From the NCBI GenBank assembly GCA_016933955.1, contig JAFGTT010000038.1, positions 1-64,000 on the forward strand: 64,000 bases of DNA. The letters run 5' to 3'. The notes beneath the pieces were generated by a model. The model saw only the letters and a program-made list of their open reading frames with translations, was not told the origin of the DNA and ran no database searches. Shown here piece after piece: positions 269-9,550 of this stretch. The position numbers were made by a program, and so were the translations under genes. The DNA is from Candidatus Zixiibacteriota bacterium. GTDB lineage: Bacteria > Zixibacteria > MSB-5A5 > GN15 > PGXB01. Numbering within the stretch: position 1 is the stretch's first letter; each line of letters opens with the position of its first letter.

Positions 269-529
269 CTATAAAACCGTTGCCTTCTGTCCCATCCAGG
301 CGGGAAGAGCCGGCATCAGATTATCGACAATCTCGATCGCCTCCTCTTCACTGATGTTGTGGTGTTCGATACGAAACCTGATCATATTTTCGCGAATGAT
401 TTTGCGCGGTTTGAGATGACCGCGTTCATCAACGCATTCGGAACAAAATTCACTTGAAAAGTTACCCCGGGGATAATCGTTTTTACTGCGCATAAGCCGG
501 GCACATGCCTGGCAAATCGAGGTCGGCAT
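269..529 (-). CDS. Small zinc-ribbon protein (Zn_ribbon_2-like)
   Basis: An 86-residue protein with an N-terminal CxxC pair (residues about 6-9) and a second CxxC (about 29-32), followed by a charged helical tail. This resembles the putative zinc-ribbon family Zn_ribbon_2, whose members are short and of unknown role. The reading frame is open further upstream, but the ATG at 529 is preferred because a GGAGGG ribosome site sits just upstream and the upstream residues look unlike a protein. It is the last gene of the minus-strand series and is separated from gerW by a terminator, so it is probably transcribed alone. Zinc binding is inferred from the cysteines; no function is known. Confidence 0.7.
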   Translation of the reverse strand: MPTSICQACARLMRSKNDYPRGNFSSEFCSECVDERGHLKPRKIIRENMIRFRIEHHNISEEEAIEIVDNLMPALPAWMGQKATVL

Positions 530-627
530 GAGTGGATCCCTCCAAAGGATGTCTTTTCTTAAGAAAGTCGGAAATATCGGCCAATAATTAACGGATGAGG
601 CAAAAAAACAGTGTGCGATTATAGAGC

Positions 628-659
628 AAAAAAAGAGCCGGGGAAAACCATCCCCGGCT
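628..659 (-). terminator. Intrinsic terminator after the GerW-family gene
   Basis: The stem AGCCGGGGA/TCCCCGGCT (arms 636-644 and 651-659) is followed on the minus strand by seven T residues (628-634). It sits 29 bp past the stop at 688 and should end the nth-DUF2953-gerW transcript. Confidence 0.85.
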
Positions 660-687
660 GTCAAATGATGTCATTGGCAGGTACGGA

Positions 688-1110
688 TCAATACCCGGGA
701 TTCTCGTCACCCGGGTTTCCCTCCGGCGATGATTCGGCCGGTTTGTCCTTTTTCATTTTATCGCGGACATCCCTGATTTTGCCGATTAACTCCGGGACCG
801 CCTCGACCAGGGCATCGAGTTTACCCGGTTTGGCCGAGAGCAGGGAGATTTTGTGTTCATCCATAATAATGAACGCGGCCGGCTCGATTTTGGCCGCTCC
901 GCCGCCGCCGCCGCCGAATCCGGCGCCTTTTTCTTTGGCTTCACCCTGGCCGCCGCCGGCCCCGAACCCGACCGAGATTTTAACCACGGGAATGACGGTT
1001 TTGTCTTTGACCGTAATCGGGTTTCCGACCACCGTCTGCGATCGGGCGATATCCTTGAGTTCCCCGACAATATCCTTGAGGATTTCGGAGACCTTGTTGT
1101 CATTAGCCAT
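688..1110 (-). CDS. GerW/YtfJ-family protein
   Basis: A 140-residue protein matching the GerW (Spore_YtfJ) family. It has an N-terminal helix, the conserved segment around VGNPITV (about residues 28-34), a glycine-rich stretch with a run of six Gly (about 65-75), then a short alpha/beta tail and a charged, Pro/Gly-rich C-terminus. In Bacillus the homologue YtfJ is needed for normal spore germination, but the family is widespread in non-spore-formers where its role is unknown. Its start overlaps the end of the upstream DUF2953 gene by 8 bp. The same pairing, ytfI (DUF2953) next to ytfJ, exists in Bacillus, which supports a shared function. No signal peptide is visible. Confidence 0.88.
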   Translation of the reverse strand: MANDNKVSEILKDIVGELKDIARSQTVVGNPITVKDKTVIPVVKISVGFGAGGGQGEAKEKGAGFGGGGGGAAKIEPAAFIIMDEHKISLLSAKPGKLDALVEAVPELIGKIRDVRDKMKKDKPAESSPEGNPGDENPGY

Positions 1111-1708
1111 AACTTTCTCCTTTTCTTCTTATTATATACCATTGCGGAATTTTTTTATTGAGTTTCTCGAATAGAATTCGACCGGCAAAGCGGATAATAT
1201 GACACAGGCGCAGGGCAATATTGCCTCGGCCGTAAAAATCGAAATCCTCGCGGTCGAAATCGGGATTGAAGGTAACATGATTCATCAATCGGGGAAATAT
1301 CCCTTTGGCCGCCCAGTAGAAAGCACAAGTCCGTCCGGTGTTATAAGGGTCGCTGAAACCGCCGTCAACCCGGAGATCGAGAGAGTCAATTCGGATTTTA
1401 TTCAGCAGGGATCTAAAATATTCGAGATAGGCGACTCTGAAATCAGACGGTTTGAGTTTGAATCTGAATTTACGTTTCTTTTTCTTCTCAGGCCGGGTCG
1501 GCCGTTTCATATCGAACCGATAGAGGGGGATTTTTGCAATAGTGACCGTTCCTTGCTTCGTTGTGAGATCAAGTATCACCCCCAGCAGGGTGTAACTGAC
1601 CCACAGCTTTTTAGCCGCATGTTCGAGACTGAACCGGATCCTGATCGAGGAAACCAGGGCCAGGAACATCAGGATGATTATAAGTAACAGGATATACCAG
1701 ATAATCAT
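1103..1708 (-). CDS. DUF2953 membrane-anchored protein (YtfI-like)
   Basis: A 201-residue protein with one strongly hydrophobic N-terminal helix (residues 2-20) and a mainly basic soluble region that includes a KKKKRK patch (about 76-81). The architecture and the gerW neighbour match DUF2953 (Bacillus YtfI). The C-terminal half carries the conserved W-A-A-K and FNPDF-like segment (about 133-150). It is translationally coupled to gerW by an 8-bp overlap. The function is unknown; one anchored membrane protein with the bulk on one face of the inner membrane is inferred. Confidence 0.8.
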   Translation of the reverse strand: MIIWYILLLIIILMFLALVSSIRIRFSLEHAAKKLWVSYTLLGVILDLTTKQGTVTIAKIPLYRFDMKRPTRPEKKKKRKFRFKLKPSDFRVAYLEYFRSLLNKIRIDSLDLRVDGGFSDPYNTGRTCAFYWAAKGIFPRLMNHVTFNPDFDREDFDFYGRGNIALRLCHIIRFAGRILFEKLNKKIPQWYIIRRKGESYG

Positions 1709-1755
1709 AACTACTCTATTATACTGTATCGGCGCGCAACAGGTTTAAAAAAGCT

Positions 1756-2394
1756 TTAAATTTCATGGGCCGAAGGGCAATATTCGGCCAGAATGCAATT
1801 ATCGCAATCAGGGCGTCTGGCCCGGCATACGGCGCGGCCGTGGTCGATCAGGAGTTGGGCAATAATAATCCAGTCTTTCTCAGGGATGATAGTCATCAGA
1901 TCCCGTTCGATTTTGATCGGGTCCTTATGTGTGGTGAATCCCAGACGCTGTGAGAGGCGGGCCACATGGGTATCGACCACGATTCCCTCGGCCTTATTGA
2001 AGGCGGCGCCCAGGATAACCGAGGCGGTTTTGCGCCCGACCCCGGCCAGTTGAACCAGTTGATCCATGGTCTCCGGCATCCGGCCGTTATGGCTTTCAAT
2101 CAGGGCCTTTGCCGATTCCTTGATCGATCTGGCCTTATTGCGGAAAAACCCGGTGGACCGGATATCCTGTTCGATTTCTTTTATATCTGCGCGGGCGAAA
2201 TCCTCGGGAGTTTTGTATTTCTTGAATAAATCCCGGGTGACAATATTGACGCGCTCGTCGGTACACTGGGCGGAAAGAATAGTCGCAACCAGAAGCTGAT
2301 GAGGTGTTTTGAAATCCAGAGTACAGCGGGCGTCGGGATAAGCCTTTTTCAGTCTGGCAATGATTTTTTTAGTGCGATCGGGATTTTCTTTCAT
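1756..2394 (-). CDS. nth: Endonuclease III (DNA glycosylase/AP lyase)
   Basis: About 212 residues, the normal length for Nth. It removes oxidised pyrimidines and cleaves the abasic site during base excision repair. The helix-hairpin-helix LAGVGRKTA holds the catalytic Lys, VDTHVARL holds the catalytic Asp, and the C-terminal cysteines follow the C-x6-C-x2-C-x5-C spacing of the [4Fe-4S] cluster loop. The ATG at 2394 lies just past the prmC stop. An in-frame GTG at 2406 that overlaps prmC is a possible alternative start. The gene follows prmC directly and is probably co-transcribed with it. Confidence 0.95.
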   Translation of the reverse strand: MKENPDRTKKIIARLKKAYPDARCTLDFKTPHQLLVATILSAQCTDERVNIVTRDLFKKYKTPEDFARADIKEIEQDIRSTGFFRNKARSIKESAKALIESHNGRMPETMDQLVQLAGVGRKTASVILGAAFNKAEGIVVDTHVARLSQRLGFTTHKDPIKIERDLMTIIPEKDWIIIAQLLIDHGRAVCRARRPDCDNCILAEYCPSAHEI

Positions 2395-2398
2395 AATT

Positions 2399-3259
2399 TC
2401 AAACACTCAAAATAACCACCCGGTCGATGTCGTTAAGGTCTTTTATAATCGAAAGCGATCGATAGCGGGAATCATCGGCAGTCAGTTTCGCGATTTTTTT
2501 GCCCTGATCATAGCCGATCTCAAACATCAGCCGACCGTTCGGGTTTAGATGATCGGGGGCTTTGTCAATCAGCCTTTTAATCAGGTCGAGTCCTTCCGGA
2601 CCCGAGACAAGGGCCTGCCGGGGGTCAGCCAGCACTTCCGGAGGGAGGGTATCGTATTCTTTCTCGGCGATATAAGGCGGGTTGGAAAGAATCAGATCGT
2701 ATTTCTCATCGGTCAGGATACCGGAGAAAAGATCCGAGACAGCGAATTTTATGCGGCTGTCCAGGGCGTGGATGGCCGCGTTCTTGCGAGCCATCATCAG
2801 CGCGGCACGGGAGATATCGACGGCCGTGACATATGCCCCGGCGAGTTCAGCGGTGATAGTAACCGCAATAACTCCCGAACCGGTGCCGAGATCGAGGATT
2901 TCGGCAGTTTCCATAGCTTCGTTGTTGACATAGCCGATTGCCAGTTGACAGAGAAGTTCGGTTTCCGGGGTGGGAATCATGACATCATCGCTGACCAGGA
3001 ATTTCCGACCATAGAAATAGGCCTCTCCAAGAATGTATTGCAGGGGGCGACGGGTGGTTCGCTGATCGACAATCCGATTGAATTTTTCCAGAACGGTATT
3101 GTCGATCAACCGCTCACCATGCAGATAGATATCTATCCGTTCGACATCAAGCAGAGTTTCCAGAATAATTTCAATTTCGACGGCGGCCGACTCGATTCCG
3201 GCCTGCCGCAATTTTTCTTCGGCTGTTTTCAATATTTTATGAATTTCCTGCTGATTCAT
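2399..3259 (-). CDS. prmC: Peptide chain release factor N5-glutamine methyltransferase
   Basis: A 286-residue PrmC (HemK). It methylates the Gln of the GGQ motif in release factors, and prfA lies in the same gene block. The N-terminal helical domain is followed by the conserved QYI-G segment (about 74-78), the SAM motif DLGTGSG (123-129) and the catalytic NPPY (193-196). The start at 3259 lacks a clear ribosome site. Its stop is immediately followed by, or overlaps, the nth start. Between prmC and the upstream small Tat ORF there are 51 bp. Confidence 0.95.
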   Translation of the reverse strand: MNQQEIHKILKTAEEKLRQAGIESAAVEIEIILETLLDVERIDIYLHGERLIDNTVLEKFNRIVDQRTTRRPLQYILGEAYFYGRKFLVSDDVMIPTPETELLCQLAIGYVNNEAMETAEILDLGTGSGVIAVTITAELAGAYVTAVDISRAALMMARKNAAIHALDSRIKFAVSDLFSGILTDEKYDLILSNPPYIAEKEYDTLPPEVLADPRQALVSGPEGLDLIKRLIDKAPDHLNPNGRLMFEIGYDQGKKIAKLTADDSRYRSLSIIKDLNDIDRVVILSV

Positions 3260-3310
3260 AACGGGTAACGGTAATTATTTCGGGATATATTGTCCTGCAT
3301 CACCGAGACT

Positions 3311-3535
3311 TTATGGATAGTCCGGCAGGGAATAAATGCCCTGTTCCATTATCGGTTGTAATTCCGGGGGCGAGGCGCACCCGGAACGGGCATGACCATG
3401 AAGGTGATACCGTTTTGGGATTGAGCGGCGGACGATTTGGGTTTGTCCTGATATTGAACGCCATGGGAAATATGTCAAAATCGCTAAACCGCCCAGGGTG
3501 ATAGTTGATTTTTTGATGAATTCCCTTCTCAGCAT
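3311..3535 (-). CDS. Small Tat-signal ORF coupled to tldE
   Basis: A 74-residue ORF that starts MLRREFIKKS, followed by a short hydrophobic stretch. This looks like a twin-arginine export signal (RRxFIK plus h-region to about residue 22). The remaining 50 residues are basic, then His/Cys- and Pro-containing, with no recognisable domain. The ATG at 3535 overlaps the tldE stop by 7 bp and is preceded by a GAGGAG-type ribosome site, so it is probably translated. It could be the remnant of a larger exported protein, since TldD-like proteins with Tat signals exist, or a genuine small peptide linked to the TldD/TldE peptidase. The sequence alone does not decide between these. Confidence 0.5.
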   Translation of the reverse strand: MLRREFIKKSTITLGGLAILTYFPWRSISGQTQIVRRSIPKRYHLHGHARSGCASPPELQPIMEQGIYSLPDYP

Positions 3536-4884
3536 TTATTGTTCTCCTCTTCCTCGGCGGCCAGATTAAAGTCGTTGATTTTCATTCCCGGGACTTTCAT
3601 CAGGACTGAAAACTGCGGGTAGATTATCCGATCAGCGGTGATAGCTTCAATATTGGAAAAGGCCTCGAGGATGGACTGGTTGGTTCGCATATTCTTCACC
3701 GGTGATTTGATGGAACCATTTTCGATTAGAAAGGTTCCATCGAGGGTGGTGCCGGTAACCATAGTTTTCATCGGATTGAGGAAGTTAAGATACCAGAAAT
3801 GAGTGATCAGGATACCTTTGTCGGTAGATTTGATCATTTCCTCAATTGAGCTTTTTCCGGGCGCGACCACCATGGTTTTCGGGTACGGTCCGAAGGTATT
3901 GGTGGGGGAGAGAGCATGTCCGGTGGAAGATGTATTCATCAAAGCGGCATAGTATGAATTATAGACTACCCCGCGGGCCAGGCCATTCTCGATCAGGGGG
4001 ACCTTCTTCCGGGCGACGCCTTCATAATCGAAAGGTCGGAAATTGAAATCGGGATCGCGGTTATCTTCATAGACGGTGAAATTATCACCGGTTATTTTTT
4101 CGTCGATTTTACCGGCCATGAAAGAGCGGCGCTGATAAAGAGTCTTACATCCAAATCCCATGAAAGCAAGAAGCAGGAGGAGTTGACCGACGGCGGCCGG
4201 TTCGAGGATGACAGCGTACTGCCCATCAGGCAGGGAGATCGGATCCCGTGATGTGGCGGCTTTCTGCAGGGCGTTTTTGGCCAGTCTGTCGATATTGATT
4301 TGGGAAGCATCGGCCGCAAAAGCCTGGGCCCAGCCGGAGTTATTATGTTCGCCGGAAGCGGTCAGGGACAGCTCGGCATGATTCCCGGCAAAATAACGCT
4401 CCATCCCGAGGCTGTTGGCCACGGCCAGGCGGTTTTCCTCGATACGGTATGCTCCTGAGATTTTCAGGCCGGCCTTGTGACAGATGCGGGATATTTTCTC
4501 GATTGCCATGGAACGCTCTACCGGTCCGCACCGGGCGGTGCCGGGCACCAGGTAATCTTCCTTGAGAATATCGCTTTCCGGTTTCGGGAAAGAGACAAAC
4601 TGCTCATCGGGCTCCATGAAAGATAAAATCGTTTCGCAGTTCTGTATGGTGCGCCGAATACCATCATCAGACAAGTCACCACCGGCGGCGACGCCGATTT
4701 TTTTGTTTTTAACAGCCCGGATGTACAGGGTGGTTTCCTCGGTGTCGATATTGTCGCTGATCTTTGATTCTGCGAAACGAGTCAGCGACAGGCGCTCGCT
4801 TTCCAGAACAGCCTCGGTCATATCGCCGGTGGAAAGGGCCAGGGCCTTTTTGAGTATTTCTTGAGATTTGCTTTTATCGATCAC
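3529..4884 (-). CDS. tldE: TldE/PmbA-family subunit of the TldD-TldE peptidase
   Basis: About 451 residues, the usual PmbA/TldE length. TldE pairs with TldD to form a metallopeptidase that trims unfolded peptides and some modified peptides; TldE itself lacks the metal site. No HExxxH is visible here, as expected. The frame is open further upstream inside tldD, but the GTG at 4884 is preferred. It lies 4 bp after the tldD stop with a GGAG site in the last tldD codons, and the residues upstream are Pro-rich and unlike the family. It overlaps the small Tat ORF at its 3' end, so three genes are coupled. Confidence 0.9.
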   Translation of the reverse strand: MIDKSKSQEILKKALALSTGDMTEAVLESERLSLTRFAESKISDNIDTEETTLYIRAVKNKKIGVAAGGDLSDDGIRRTIQNCETILSFMEPDEQFVSFPKPESDILKEDYLVPGTARCGPVERSMAIEKISRICHKAGLKISGAYRIEENRLAVANSLGMERYFAGNHAELSLTASGEHNNSGWAQAFAADASQINIDRLAKNALQKAATSRDPISLPDGQYAVILEPAAVGQLLLLLAFMGFGCKTLYQRRSFMAGKIDEKITGDNFTVYEDNRDPDFNFRPFDYEGVARKKVPLIENGLARGVVYNSYYAALMNTSSTGHALSPTNTFGPYPKTMVVAPGKSSIEEMIKSTDKGILITHFWYLNFLNPMKTMVTGTTLDGTFLIENGSIKSPVKNMRTNQSILEAFSNIEAITADRIIYPQFSVLMKVPGMKINDFNLAAEEEENNKC

Positions 4885-4888
4885 GGCA

Positions 4889-6340
4889 TTATTCTCCAAT
4901 CTGAATCCGGTCAAATCTGGCCGGGGCGGCACCCTGGGCGGTTCGGGCATTCTGCCCGGGTTGACCTTTGCCGCAGTTGGGTGTCCCCCAGACGCGGTAG
5001 GAATTGCGGTCGGCGATGGCGGAACATCGATTCCAAAAGTCCGTAGTGCAACCCGAGTAGGTTGGATTCTTGACCGGGCGGGTCAGTTTTCCGCCCTCGA
5101 TTAACCAGCCGATTTCACAACCAAATTGAAAATATTTTCGTTCATCGTCGATTGACCACGATTCCACCGTATCCATATAAATACCGTCATCGACTTCCGA
5201 AATGATCTGATCGAATGACTTATTGCCGGGTTCGAGAAGGATGTTGCAGATGCGGACGATGGGGATATTGCGCCAGCTGTTAGCCCGCATGGCCGCTGTG
5301 GACGATTTACCGATCCGGGCGGCGGTTTCGCGTGAGGACAGGTAATTGACCAGAAGGCCGTTTCTTATCAGATCAGTTGAGTAACTGGGAACGCCTTCAT
5401 CATCGTAACCGCAGGAAGCCAGCGCATGCGGGACGGTACCGTCGGTGCGAACAGTAACAATATCCGAGGCGAATTGCAGGTTTCCGAGTTTATCCGGGGT
5501 GGCAAAGGAAGTCCCGGAGAAATTTCTCTCGGCTCCGAAAACCCGATCCAGTTCGAGAGCATGACCGATCGATTCGTGTATCTGAAGCGAAACCTGGTCA
5601 CCGGACAAAACCAGAGTGGTTTCTTTAACCGGGCATTCCTCGGCCGTGGTTAGCATTTTAATTTCCTCGGCCAGACGGGGAATAGCCTCTTTGAGATTCA
5701 ATTCCTCCAGCAGTTCATAACCTTTCGATTCATATTGTCCCGAAGAAGTGGGGAAAGAGCGCTCATAGCGTTCACGATGTGAAGGAGTCATGCCGAGCGA
5801 TAGCCCGCCTCCGGTCTGAATAATGAATTGCTGGATATCGGCTCCGTCGGTCGAGGTGAAGTATTTCTCTCTCTTGCGGAAAGAGGCGAAGCAGGTGCGG
5901 GAGTCCATCCCCGGGCCGGATATGGCCATGGCGCTGTCAATCTCCCGCAGGAAATTTATTTTCTCCTCGAGAGAGAGGCTGAAAGGATCGATTTCGTATG
6001 GGGAAATATAGCGCCCGATAGCCGGCTCAAGCGGGGCCAGTACGACCCGGGCCTCATTAACCAGGGCCGAGGCCTGGGCAATCTCGGACGCCATTTCGGC
6101 TTTTCTCCTGATATTGTCTTCTGAAAGATCATCGGTTGAGGCAAATCCCCAGGCTCCGTTATGAATCACCCGGATACCGAGGCCTTCGGTGACGGTGCGC
6201 TCAATCGGTTCGACCGTTCCGGAGGATATGGAAATATTTTCATCCTCAATCCGTTCAAAACGAACATCGGCGTATTCAACGTCCAGCTGGCGGCATTTGT
6301 TAAGCGCCAGGCGGGCCAGTTTTTCTCTATTGATGCTCAT
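4889..6340 (-). CDS. tldD: TldD-family metallopeptidase
   Basis: A 483-residue TldD, the catalytic subunit of the TldD-TldE heterodimer. The zinc motif HESIGH (HExxxH) lies in the middle of the chain, within IHESIGHALELDR. The C-terminal conserved stretch CEIGWLIEGGKLTRPVKNPT with its Cys is intact. It has no signal peptide and is probably cytoplasmic. It is the first gene of the tldD-tldE-small ORF-prmC-nth series. In known cases the complex degrades the antitoxin CcdA and matures microcin B17; the substrate here is unknown, but the coupled small ORF is an obvious candidate. Confidence 0.95.
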   Translation of the reverse strand: MSINREKLARLALNKCRQLDVEYADVRFERIEDENISISSGTVEPIERTVTEGLGIRVIHNGAWGFASTDDLSEDNIRRKAEMASEIAQASALVNEARVVLAPLEPAIGRYISPYEIDPFSLSLEEKINFLREIDSAMAISGPGMDSRTCFASFRKREKYFTSTDGADIQQFIIQTGGGLSLGMTPSHRERYERSFPTSSGQYESKGYELLEELNLKEAIPRLAEEIKMLTTAEECPVKETTLVLSGDQVSLQIHESIGHALELDRVFGAERNFSGTSFATPDKLGNLQFASDIVTVRTDGTVPHALASCGYDDEGVPSYSTDLIRNGLLVNYLSSRETAARIGKSSTAAMRANSWRNIPIVRICNILLEPGNKSFDQIISEVDDGIYMDTVESWSIDDERKYFQFGCEIGWLIEGGKLTRPVKNPTYSGCTTDFWNRCSAIADRNSYRVWGTPNCGKGQPGQNARTAQGAAPARFDRIQIGE

Positions 6341-6503
6341 ATGTTATCGATCCAGTTTGAATTCCTTTGATAATTCCACCGGTTATATACTAAATCATAC
6401 TTGTAAGGGAAAGAATATTTTCGTAATATTGTAAACTCATTAAATGTGAATTAGTTGAGGAGTTTCAATTTTTGTCATAAGTCAGACCGGGAGTATTGGA
6501 ATA

Positions 6504-7307
6504 GTGCGGCGGCCCATTTTTTTATGGATATTGACAGTAATTATTACTTTATCATCGGTTGTTTATCAGCGGATGACCGGTCCGACATACTCGATTCGCG
6601 GCAAAACGGATATATCCGGGAGGGAAATATCTTATCGTCTTCTGACAACTCATGAAACGATCTCCGATGCTGTCATGGAAATGACAGTCGGGGATATGGA
6701 TGTCAGTGGCCGGGTGCGCTGGAAAAGATTTAAAAGCTATGATGAATGGACGACCGACAGCCTGAACCGCCGGGACGATAAACTGGTTCTTGCCATTCCA
6801 AAACAACCGGCGGCGGGAAAAGTCATTTATGATGTCAGTTTGACGGGACCTGACGGTATCGAGCGTAAATTAACCGATGAGTCGGTTATCATAAGGTTCA
6901 AGGGAGTCGTCCCGCCTTATGTTCTATGGCCCCATGTAGTGTTCATGTTTATCGGTATGCTGGTATCGAACCGGGCCGGTCTGGAAGCTGTAGTCGGAGG
7001 TAAAGGAGTTTTTTCTTACGGGTTGATTACCACTATTTTGATGGTGCTGGGGGGATTGATTTTCGGACCGATTGTCCAGAAATATGCTTTCGGGGCTTTC
7101 TGGACGGGATGGCCGCACGGCCATGATTTGACCGATAATAAAACCTTCGTGGCCATAATCTTCTGGCTGATTGCTCTCTGGCGAAGCCGGGGCGGCAGGA
7201 GTGGCCGGGGATGGATTATTACGGCCTCACTGGTGACGCTATTGATATATCTTATTCCGCACAGCGTCCTGGGATCGGAAATCGATTATACAAAGATGGA
7301 GAATTGA
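6504..7307 (+). CDS. Membrane protein of unknown function
   Basis: A 267-residue protein that I do not recognise. It has an N-terminal transmembrane helix (about 5-22), an extracytoplasmic beta-rich region (about 30-135), then four hydrophobic helices near 140-155, 170-192, 215-228 and 240-255. A conserved-looking GHDLTDNKT segment lies between helices (about 206-214), and the chain ends PHSVLGSE-type. The layout, one anchored beta domain plus a helical bundle, suggests a domain presented on the outer face of the inner membrane. It starts at GTG with a GGGAG site upstream. It is the only plus-strand gene in the first 21 kb and interrupts the prfA-prmC block. Confidence 0.75.
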   Translation: MRRPIFLWILTVIITLSSVVYQRMTGPTYSIRGKTDISGREISYRLLTTHETISDAVMEMTVGDMDVSGRVRWKRFKSYDEWTTDSLNRRDDKLVLAIPKQPAAGKVIYDVSLTGPDGIERKLTDESVIIRFKGVVPPYVLWPHVVFMFIGMLVSNRAGLEAVVGGKGVFSYGLITTILMVLGGLIFGPIVQKYAFGAFWTGWPHGHDLTDNKTFVAIIFWLIALWRSRGGRSGRGWIITASLVTLLIYLIPHSVLGSEIDYTKMEN

Positions 7308-7338
7308 ATTACCGCCGCGTCTTTGAGATAGAAGTTGA

Positions 7339-8424
7339 TCAGCCGGTTTTCTTTTGCGGTTTTTCGGATTCCAGCCGGGATTGACGGTCATGTTTTTCCA
7401 GGGCAGTAACGATTTCGTCAAGATGACCATCAAGAATGTCATTGAGACGGTGCAGAGTCAAACCGATGCGATGATCGGTCACGCGTGACTGGGGGAAATT
7501 GTAGGTGCGGATTTTGGCCGAACGATCGCCGGTTCCGACCATTGATTTCCGTTCCCGGGCGATTTCCTCGTTTTGCTCTTCGATAATCTTATCCAGCAGG
7601 CGGGCGCGTAACACCTGGAGTGCGCGGGCCTTGTTTTTGTGCTGGGATTTTTCATCCTGGCAGGTAACCACCAGCCCGGTGGGCAGGTGGGTTATGCGCA
7701 CGGCCGAATCGGTGGTGTTGACCGACTGGCCGCCCGGCCCGGAGGAACGGTAGACGTCGATTTTAAGATCGTTCTCATTTATTTTGAGATCAACCTCTTC
7801 GGCCTCGAGTAAGACCGCCACAGTGGCGGCGGAAGTGTGGATCCGACCCTGGGATTCGGTCAAAGGGACGCGCTGAACCCGGTGAACACCGGATTCGTAT
7901 TTAAGGCGGCCATAGGCTCCCTCGCCTTTGATAATGAAGATAATTTCCTTGACACCGCCCAGTTCAATCGGATTGGATGAGAGAACATCGACCTTCCATC
8001 CTTTCTCTTCGGCATAGCGGGTGTACATCCGGTACAGATCGCTGGCGAATATGGCGGCCTCATTGCCGCCGGTCCCGGCCCGGATTTCGATAATGACGTT
8101 TTTAATATCGCGGGGGTCTTTGGGGCTTAGCAGCAGATTCAGTTTTTCCTCAAGTCCCTCGAGTCTGGAATCGGAAGCCGCCAATTCCTCCTCGGCCATA
8201 GACATCATCTCGGAATCATCGGAAGTATCCAGGATTTCCCTGGCATCATCGATATTGCGGCGGCATTGGCGGTAAAGCCGCCCCGTTTCCAGAATTTCCT
8301 CAACCTGACGCCGCTCGCGAGATAATTCCCGCAGGCGGTTCTGGTTGGAGAGGACTTCCGGTTTCATCAGGTCCCGATTGATTTCCTCGAGGCGTTTTTC
8401 ATATTTTTCTATAATCTCAAGCAT
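7339..8424 (-). CDS. prfA: Peptide chain release factor 1
   Basis: A 361-residue RF1. It reads UAA and UAG and triggers peptide release. The GGQ motif is at 231-233, within [10 protein letters not shown]. The stop-codon-reading loop is PLT (187-189) inside [14 protein letters not shown]; the usual RF1 motif is PAT or PxT, so Leu at the middle position is a mild variant. PrmC, which methylates the GGQ Gln, is encoded 4 kb further along the same strand. The gene lies downstream of rpmE and the YqhQ homologue, an order also common in other phyla. Confidence 0.97.
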
Positions 8425-8474
8425 AATAATTCACCGTGAATAAAAATGGTGGATAAGGATAACGAGTGGGACCG

Positions 8475-9440
8475 CTAAAGGCAAGTTCTTTTAACGGTGA
8501 TTTTCGACTCAGTGATACCGAGGGCGGTCTCCAGGGCGACAATCGCGACTTCCATCTGTTCCGGGGAGGGTTCTTTGGTGGTGATACGCTGGAGCCAGAG
8601 TCCGGGCTGGATGAGGGTGCGGGTCAGGGCGTTATCGCGGGTTTTCCCGGAGAGTTTAAGTAATTCGTAAGAACCGCCGGCTACCAGCGGCAAGAGGCTG
8701 AAATGGATGGCAAAACGGGTTAGAAGAGCCGGGGGGTAACCGGTGATAACCGCGAAGACAGTATCGGATATGGAGTAAACCAGGATGGCGAAAAGGGCTA
8801 CGATCAGGATAAAGCTGGTGCCGCACCGGGGGTGGTGGGTGGTATATTTGCCGACACTTTCCGGGGTCAGTTCATCGCCGTTTTCGTAGGCGAAAATCGA
8901 TTTATGCTCGGCGCCGTGATACTGGAAGACTTTCTTGAATTCGCCAAAGAGAGAAATGAACCATACATACAGAAGGAACAGAATGACGCGAATAATTCCG
9001 GCGACAAGATTGAATGAGAGGGCATCCTTCTCGACATGCAGAAGGGAGGAGATCAAAAGGGGGGTGAAAAAGAATATCAGGATACCCAGGCCGAGGGCAA
9101 TCACGACGGTGCCGAATATGGTAAAATTACTCATCTGTCTTTCGCGGGGATTATACTCCTGGCCCTTTTCCTCGGCTTCCTTCTTTTCCATTTCCTTAAC
9201 CGCCACATCGGCCGAGAAATTTAGGGTTTTGATGCCCATCACCAGCATTTCGAAAAAAGTGATAACGCCACGAATAACAAGCAGGCCCAGGAATTTATGT
9301 CTTTTGGCAAGCGAAATATATTTTTCGGTTTTGACCAGGATTTCACCGGAGGGAATGCGGACGGCGGTCGAGATTTTGTCGGTGGAGCGCATCATGACTC
9401 CCTCAATTACCGCTTGTCCGCCGACAGATAAGTCAGGCAT
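8475..9440 (-). CDS. YqhQ-like DUF1385 membrane protein
   Basis: About 321 residues. The N-terminal VGGQAVIEGVMMRS is the signature of the DUF1385/YqhQ family. Several hydrophobic helices follow, and the central GAEHK and HPRCGTSF segments are the other conserved family blocks. The family function is unsettled; it is nearly always encoded next to prfA and rpmE, as here. The ATG at 9440 is preferred to an upstream TTG because a GAGG site precedes it and family members start at MPxLSVGGQA. Confidence 0.9.
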   Translation of the reverse strand: MPDLSVGGQAVIEGVMMRSTDKISTAVRIPSGEILVKTEKYISLAKRHKFLGLLVIRGVITFFEMLVMGIKTLNFSADVAVKEMEKKEAEEKGQEYNPRERQMSNFTIFGTVVIALGLGILIFFFTPLLISSLLHVEKDALSFNLVAGIIRVILFLLYVWFISLFGEFKKVFQYHGAEHKSIFAYENGDELTPESVGKYTTHHPRCGTSFILIVALFAILVYSISDTVFAVITGYPPALLTRFAIHFSLLPLVAGGSYELLKLSGKTRDNALTRTLIQPGLWLQRITTKEPSPEQMEVAIVALETALGITESKITVKRTCL

Positions 9441-9550
9441 CCGGACCTCGTTCAATATCAATTAAAATCTATCACGGAAGACCTATCTTCCAAGAGCAAG
9501 AATAATCCACCCCGATAAAACATCGGAGCGTCAACGACAATTAATACGGC

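Follow-up and report, generated by a model that had tools for sequence, protein, structure and literature searches.

Within the window, comprising the first 64,000 nucleotides (nt) of contig JAFGTT010000038.1 from a Candidatus Zixiibacteriota bacterium (GenBank assembly GCA_016933955.1), the genes of a TldD/TldE peptidase are followed by a small open reading frame (ORF) encoding a 74-amino-acid (aa) micro-protein with a signal of the twin-arginine translocation (Tat) type. The ORF occupies positions 3311–3535 of the minus strand, and its start codon lies within the stop of tldE (PmbA): the two genes share the 7 nt ATGCTGA at 3529–3535 (minus), in which TGA terminates tldE. A Shine-Dalgarno-like GAGGAG at 3544–3549 (minus) stands 8 nt upstream of the peptide ATG, and purine-rich stretches likewise precede the peptide start in relatives. 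The ORF, its 7-base overlap and its good ribosome site had been described in the same terms in a preliminary description of this DNA. The tldE gene, which encodes the non-catalytic partner without HExxxH, was listed as 3529–4950 (minus); the probable true start is a GTG at 4884, since the corresponding position in relatives is occupied by a start codon, and the listed one lies 22 codons farther upstream. The tldD gene (4889–6340, minus) encodes the zinc peptidase subunit, which contains HExxxH and lacks a Tat signal, so that the neighbors of the peptide gene form a complete metallopeptidase pair (M103) with the motif in TldD only. The conserved downstream neighbor of the peptide gene is prmC (2399–3259, minus). 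Pfam confirmed the identities of TldE, TldD and PrmC, and the minus-strand gene order reads DUF1385, prfA, tldD, tldE, the 74-aa ORF, prmC and endonuclease III.

The micro-protein opens with MLRREFIKKS and continues into a hydrophobic stretch; its Tat-type signal region MLRREFIKKSTITLGGLAILTYFPW comprises residues 1–25 (3461–3535, minus). The NCBIfam Tat signal model TIGR01409 scores the window peptide at 16.0 bits, 0.7 bits short of its 16.7 cut-off, and matches 19 of 31 aligned family members at E ≤ 1. Pfam finds no match in the window peptide; among the 31 members it detects a Tat signal in 11 and nothing else convincing. The twin-arginine-like N-terminus noted earlier is borne out by the presence of RRxF in 54/54 peptides of the family, a count to be read with the fact that the twin-arginine pattern was used to find the ORFs in most families outside the two nearest to the window genome (f1 and f2). 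The tail carries the motif YHLHGHARSGCASPPE (residues 43–58; 3362–3409, minus). A Cys after residue 29 is present in all 54 peptides and the spacing G-x4-G-C in 45 of them, and the positions invariant in 18 close homologs include R3, R4, F6, G47, H48, S51, G52, C53, P57 and E58. AlphaFold2, run with 33 sequences, predicts helices at residues 3–22 and 57–69, the latter short, joined by an extended middle segment (predicted template modeling score, pTM, 0.30), with a mean predicted local distance difference test score of 93–94 over residues 1–20 and no globular domain in the model. A lipoprotein was also considered and set aside; judged by eye, the residues before the Cys of the window protein are RSG and about 28 residues separate it from the hydrophobic stretch, so that it does not form a usual lipobox. 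A TatC gene is present in the genome of the window.

To delineate the family, homologs and tldE genes were surveyed by phylum-level and class-level searches of 132 genomes each. With the 74-aa protein as sole query against 60 relatives, 19 genomes gave matches, that of the window included; one of these (L019) was partial and contained stops, and was dropped as spurious, whereas the others are full-length homologs in the same position. The peptide start overlaps the tldE stop by 7 nt in 18/18 f1/f2 genomes, again including the window. Ratios of nonsynonymous to synonymous substitution rates (dN/dS, NG86 method) for ten pairs were 0.10, 0.13, 0.14, 0.14, 0.15, 0.16, 0.19, 0.33, 0.40 and 0.48; some dS values are near saturation, which makes the ratios rough, and they nonetheless identify a gene under purifying selection at the codon level. 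The constant overlap together with this range of dN/dS therefore places the ORF well beyond chance.

Across the wider phylum, TldE scores are bimodal, with proteins of the window type at 363.9 bits or more and complete paralogs at 300 bits or less. Window-type TldE was found in 55 of the 132 genomes by hand count, including one (G024) in which it is split into two pieces of 265 and 195 bits; a 56th genome (G092) shows just the N-terminus of TldE, where its contig ends. The DNA behind window-type tldE was read in all 55 genomes, and 52 of them, spanning 13 families, have a short Tat-signal ORF there. In two of the remaining three (G102 and G110) the contig stops short of where the peptide would be expected, and in the third (G066) the peptide stands apart from tldE, directly before prmC; this genome retains both window-type tldE and tldD, separated from each other, with tldD on another contig. 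Counting G066 and a further genome, G065, the family comprises 54 peptides of 62–91 aa in 14 families; the G131 sequence begins inside its ORF, and an upstream ATG would add a few residues. These data establish, at the level of sequence, a conserved gene family and its linkage to tldE. Of the checks proposed with the preliminary description, those of position in relatives, dN/dS, length and a C-terminal motif came out in favor of a maintained gene. Furthermore, prmC adjoins the peptide gene in 41/41 genomes where this was tested by tblastn (17 loci, 23 of a further 26 loci, and the window; the three misses among the 26 are G102, G110 and G066), and in the genomes outside this check at most 87 nt beyond the peptide gene were read.

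Among 80 TldE-like loci from named genomes, the peptide occurs after window-type Zixiibacteriota tldE, and inspection by eye revealed no convincing peptide after paralogous or non-Zixiibacteriota tldE, some loci (e.g., L154, L155 and L179) ending too early to tell. Several candidates were judged spurious. One, L213, is an ORF located behind a tldE-like gene in Planctomycetota; it has no G-x4-G-C and continues into a short repeat. The others are profile matches in two f4 genomes (G072 and G075) that have neither a Tat signal in the match nor a TldE match in the genome. Many further weak profile matches (E up to 0.01) covered the signal part only, lay in longer ORFs or contained stops.

The large subunits themselves appear to lack export signals. 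HExxxH occurs in 41/41 TldD loci and 0/40 TldE loci; this and the following N-terminus counts are by locus, some genomes being represented under two locus identifiers. Among the N-termini of 37 TldD and 39 TldE loci of the window type, RRx[FL] lies near three of each. These cases (L047, L049 and L142, from two f5 genomes) lie upstream of the likely start and have no hydrophobic stretch, and were therefore not counted as Tat signals. Neither window-type TldD nor TldE thus seems, from sequence, to carry a convincing Tat signal. The window's genome contains three TldD/E pairs in total, and in one of them (L135:4793-7715, G000:C27) TldD starts with its own Tat signal. Pairs of this Tat type combine a Tat motif on TldD with an adjoining partner lacking RRx[FL] in 16/16 loci, the window genome's own included; the 16 were taken from 20 matches, four at 35–38% identity being excluded. 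Because the signal lies on TldD and the adjoining partner has none, an exported TldD/E with a hitchhiking partner likely exists in these bacteria. Cysteine content, a rough sign of compartment, gives a mixed picture overall: for TldE it is 0.42% in the window type (25 loci), 0.45% in the Tat-pair partner (16 loci) and 0.84% in the C12 type (14 loci), and for TldD it is 1.35% in the window type (23 loci), 0.79% in the Tat type and 1.81% in the C12 type.

Taken as a whole, we tentatively favor the reading, to which we give somewhat less than an even chance, that the micro-protein serves the window-type TldD/E as a separate escort, or as a third subunit, that bears the Tat signal. The Tat pathway is known for folded cargo and, since the peptide tail is predicted to have no fold, a partner is suggested. 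An escort would be the most economical arrangement because the signal resides on a foldless peptide, the adjoining TldD/E appears signal-less, and another pair has the signal fused to it. The tail, with its G-x4-G-C motif, would dock in the cytoplasm on TldD/E once the heterodimer had assembled, whereupon the Tat signal of the peptide would carry the complex across the membrane as a hitchhiker; the peptide would be a detachable export ticket, or a third subunit, for a pair with no signal on either large subunit. Speculatively, until export the tail Cys may also touch the zinc site of TldD or hold it in check. A narrower version, in which the peptide is a stand-alone Tat export ticket whose tail Cys acts as an in-trans cysteine switch on the TldD zinc and is released after export, appears improbable. 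The co-occurrence with window-type tldE in 52 of 55 genomes, the retention of both genes in G066, the constant overlap in f1/f2, the low dN/dS and the Cys content of window-type TldE, as low as that of the Tat-pair partner, count for an escort. So does tail similarity between families: when a hidden Markov model (HMM) of the tail was built from f1/f2 only, 17 of 35 tails from the remaining families scored higher than each of their 100 shuffled versions, and 7 scored above the highest of the 3,500 shuffles overall. Hitchhiker export through Tat is reported for HybOC and PaoABC in the accessible part of PMC4273604, and the likeness is that a signal-bearing partner could carry signal-less subunits; in those systems, however, the signal sits on an enzyme subunit, whereas here it sits on a foldless 74-aa protein whose binding is putative.

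Several observations weigh against such an escort. The known Tat escorts in the accessible part of PMC4273604 are enzyme subunits, not micro-proteins. One genome, G065 (f6, 52% complete), has the peptide and no window-type TldE that could be found, which on sequence speaks against strict co-occurrence of peptide and tldE, and in three f17 genomes (L119, L159 and L160) tldD lies on a different contig from tldE and the peptide. The co-occurrence could also partly reflect inheritance of one ancestral gene block. Window-type TldD, richer in Cys than the Tat-type TldD, looks partly cytoplasmic by this measure. Nor is the tail equally recognizable throughout the family. With the f1/f2 tail HMM, three of the 35 tails were left unscored and those of f9, f15, f16 and part of f19 were mostly unrecognized; the motif itself diverges in f15, f16 and some of f19. 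The case for f9, f15, f16 and part of f19 is accordingly made by gene position, the Tat signal and the Cys rather than by tail similarity.

The link to TldD/E might instead be that of a substrate, as the preliminary description had proposed alongside an exported peptide. The exported, TldD/E-linked peptide has gained good support from conservation, the overlap, purifying selection and Tat-type features, with export itself remaining a prediction; the substrate role we consider possible though doubtful. It would have the peptide either as an unexported precursor that is trimmed or destroyed, or as one processed after modification of its Cys, in the manner of a ribosomally synthesized and post-translationally modified peptide (RiPP), with export and trimming in competition. 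In their accessible parts, PMC5810440 and PMC10885120 describe TldD/E as cutting unfolded peptides from the N-terminus, the modified microcin B17 precursor being a substrate, and PMC5810440 describes a heterodimer into which unfolded N-termini of at least about 15 residues enter via a narrow channel. The gene overlap with tldE in f1/f2, the predicted absence of a fold in the mature part and the tail Cys kept in 54/54 peptides would all suit such a role. Trimming from the N-terminus would, on the other hand, remove the Tat signal, and a Tat precursor that was a free substrate in the cytoplasm would therefore lose it before export; a conserved tail motif, moreover, would be unneeded by a sequence-independent protease. 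No modification enzyme was recognized among the Pfam-scanned window genes (269–9461), one of which (6504–7307) has no match, the annotation of neighbors in relatives being unsystematic; for known RiPPs, the genes for TldD/E frequently lie away from the cluster (PMC10885120, accessible part). Alternatively, the peptide could be an independent envelope component, for example with a redox role or metal binding through its Cys, or binding an outer-membrane protein, and be merely co-transcribed with tldE. In 11/11 peptide-bearing genomes of f15, f16 and f17 (loci L050, L051, L057, L119, L121–L126 and L128), a gene encoding about 200 aa separates the peptide gene from tldE, and the three products scanned are similar to outer-membrane beta-barrels, in each case below the Pfam cut-off (PF13505; E = 6e-6, 8e-5 and 0.02). 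In f6, furthermore, it is prmC rather than tldE that the peptide accompanies, and G065, where no window-type TldE was found, belongs to this family. Against such independence stand the succession of window-type tldE and peptide in 13 families, the retention of both in G066 despite their separation, and the maintenance of the start codon within the tldE stop in f1/f2; it, too, strikes us as a doubtful proposition, if a possible one.

A different origin is suggested by similarity to the N-terminus of [NiFe] hydrogenase small subunits, of which the peptide might be a truncated remnant or relative sharing the Tat signal and the GxxCxGC loop. When the family profile was compared with the PDB, the best match was a NiFeSe hydrogenase small subunit (E = 6.7e-6, positions 1–64), with a second hydrogenase at E = 3.5e-4, and a chain lacking the signal matched positions 37–64 at E = 2.7; members also match hydrogenase small subunits weakly in NCBIfam, and the six longer matches that were translated (L238–L243), out of many longer ORFs, are all [NiFe] hydrogenase small subunits with identical G-x4-G-C spacing. 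On the other side, FdhA, another Tat enzyme, also matches positions 1–66 (E = 0.0084), and the tail alone finds nothing in the PDB at E ≤ 10; among 19,926 segments it hits a single hydrogenase, at E = 3.1. The GxxxxGC spacing of the peptides resembles the GxxCxGC loop of the hydrogenases, but the proximal-cluster CxxC (GxxCxGC) is found in 0/54 peptides and the remainder of the protein is absent. Because the tail-only similarity is not significant, and that with the signal included is only suggestive, no homology to hydrogenases is claimed, and a hydrogenase remnant with so conserved a length and place is very unlikely. More generally, the earlier suggestion that the peptide is what is left of a larger Tat protein is rejected for any recent truncation, since all 54 peptides across 14 families are short and 13 of these families also preserve the position behind tldE. 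A spurious or decaying ORF, for which the small size and the lack of a Pfam match speak and nothing further, can practically be dismissed, given the conserved length, place and motif and a dN/dS below 0.5 in 10/10 pairs.

A conserved gene with an export signal beside tldE in 13 families of one phylum points the search for TldD/E functions toward the envelope and, if the micro-protein does carry TldD/E, it would be an unusually small Tat escort. Small Tat proteins beside enzyme genes have a counterpart in formate_TAT (TIGR02811), which is encoded beside formate dehydrogenase genes and ends in the motif Y[HRK]x[TS]xH[IV]xx[YF]Y. The likeness includes a size under about 90 aa, a Tat signal, a short conserved C-terminal motif and a gene beside an enzyme gene. 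TIGR02811 matches 2 of 31 members at E ≤ 1 (best 2.8e-4); the formate_TAT motif, however, occurs in 0/54 peptides, and the neighbors here, in the window and the tested loci, are tldE and prmC, mostly with tldD. About 60% of bacterial genomes contain TldD/E, for which functions other than the few established ones are believed to exist (PMC10885120, accessible part), and the accessible parts of PMC5810440 and PMC10885120 make no mention of a Tat micro-protein as its dedicated partner. In literature on TldD with Tat, TldD with TldE and Tat hitchhikers, the gene is undescribed among the titles and abstract openings listed, in which subscription journals are thinly covered.

Two further features of the surrounding DNA were observed. 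Upstream of the cluster, prfA (7339–8424, minus) is the neighbor in several relatives as well, and between prfA and tldD an ORF of 267 aa lies on the opposite strand (6504–7307, plus); its product has hydrophobic stretches and no Pfam match, and homologs occur near tldD or prmC in several relatives. Additionally, overlapping genes for a Spore_YtfJ protein (PF09579) and a DUF2953 protein are located at 688–1110 and 1103–1708 (minus) in this Zixiibacteriota genome, a pair known from spore-forming Firmicutes.

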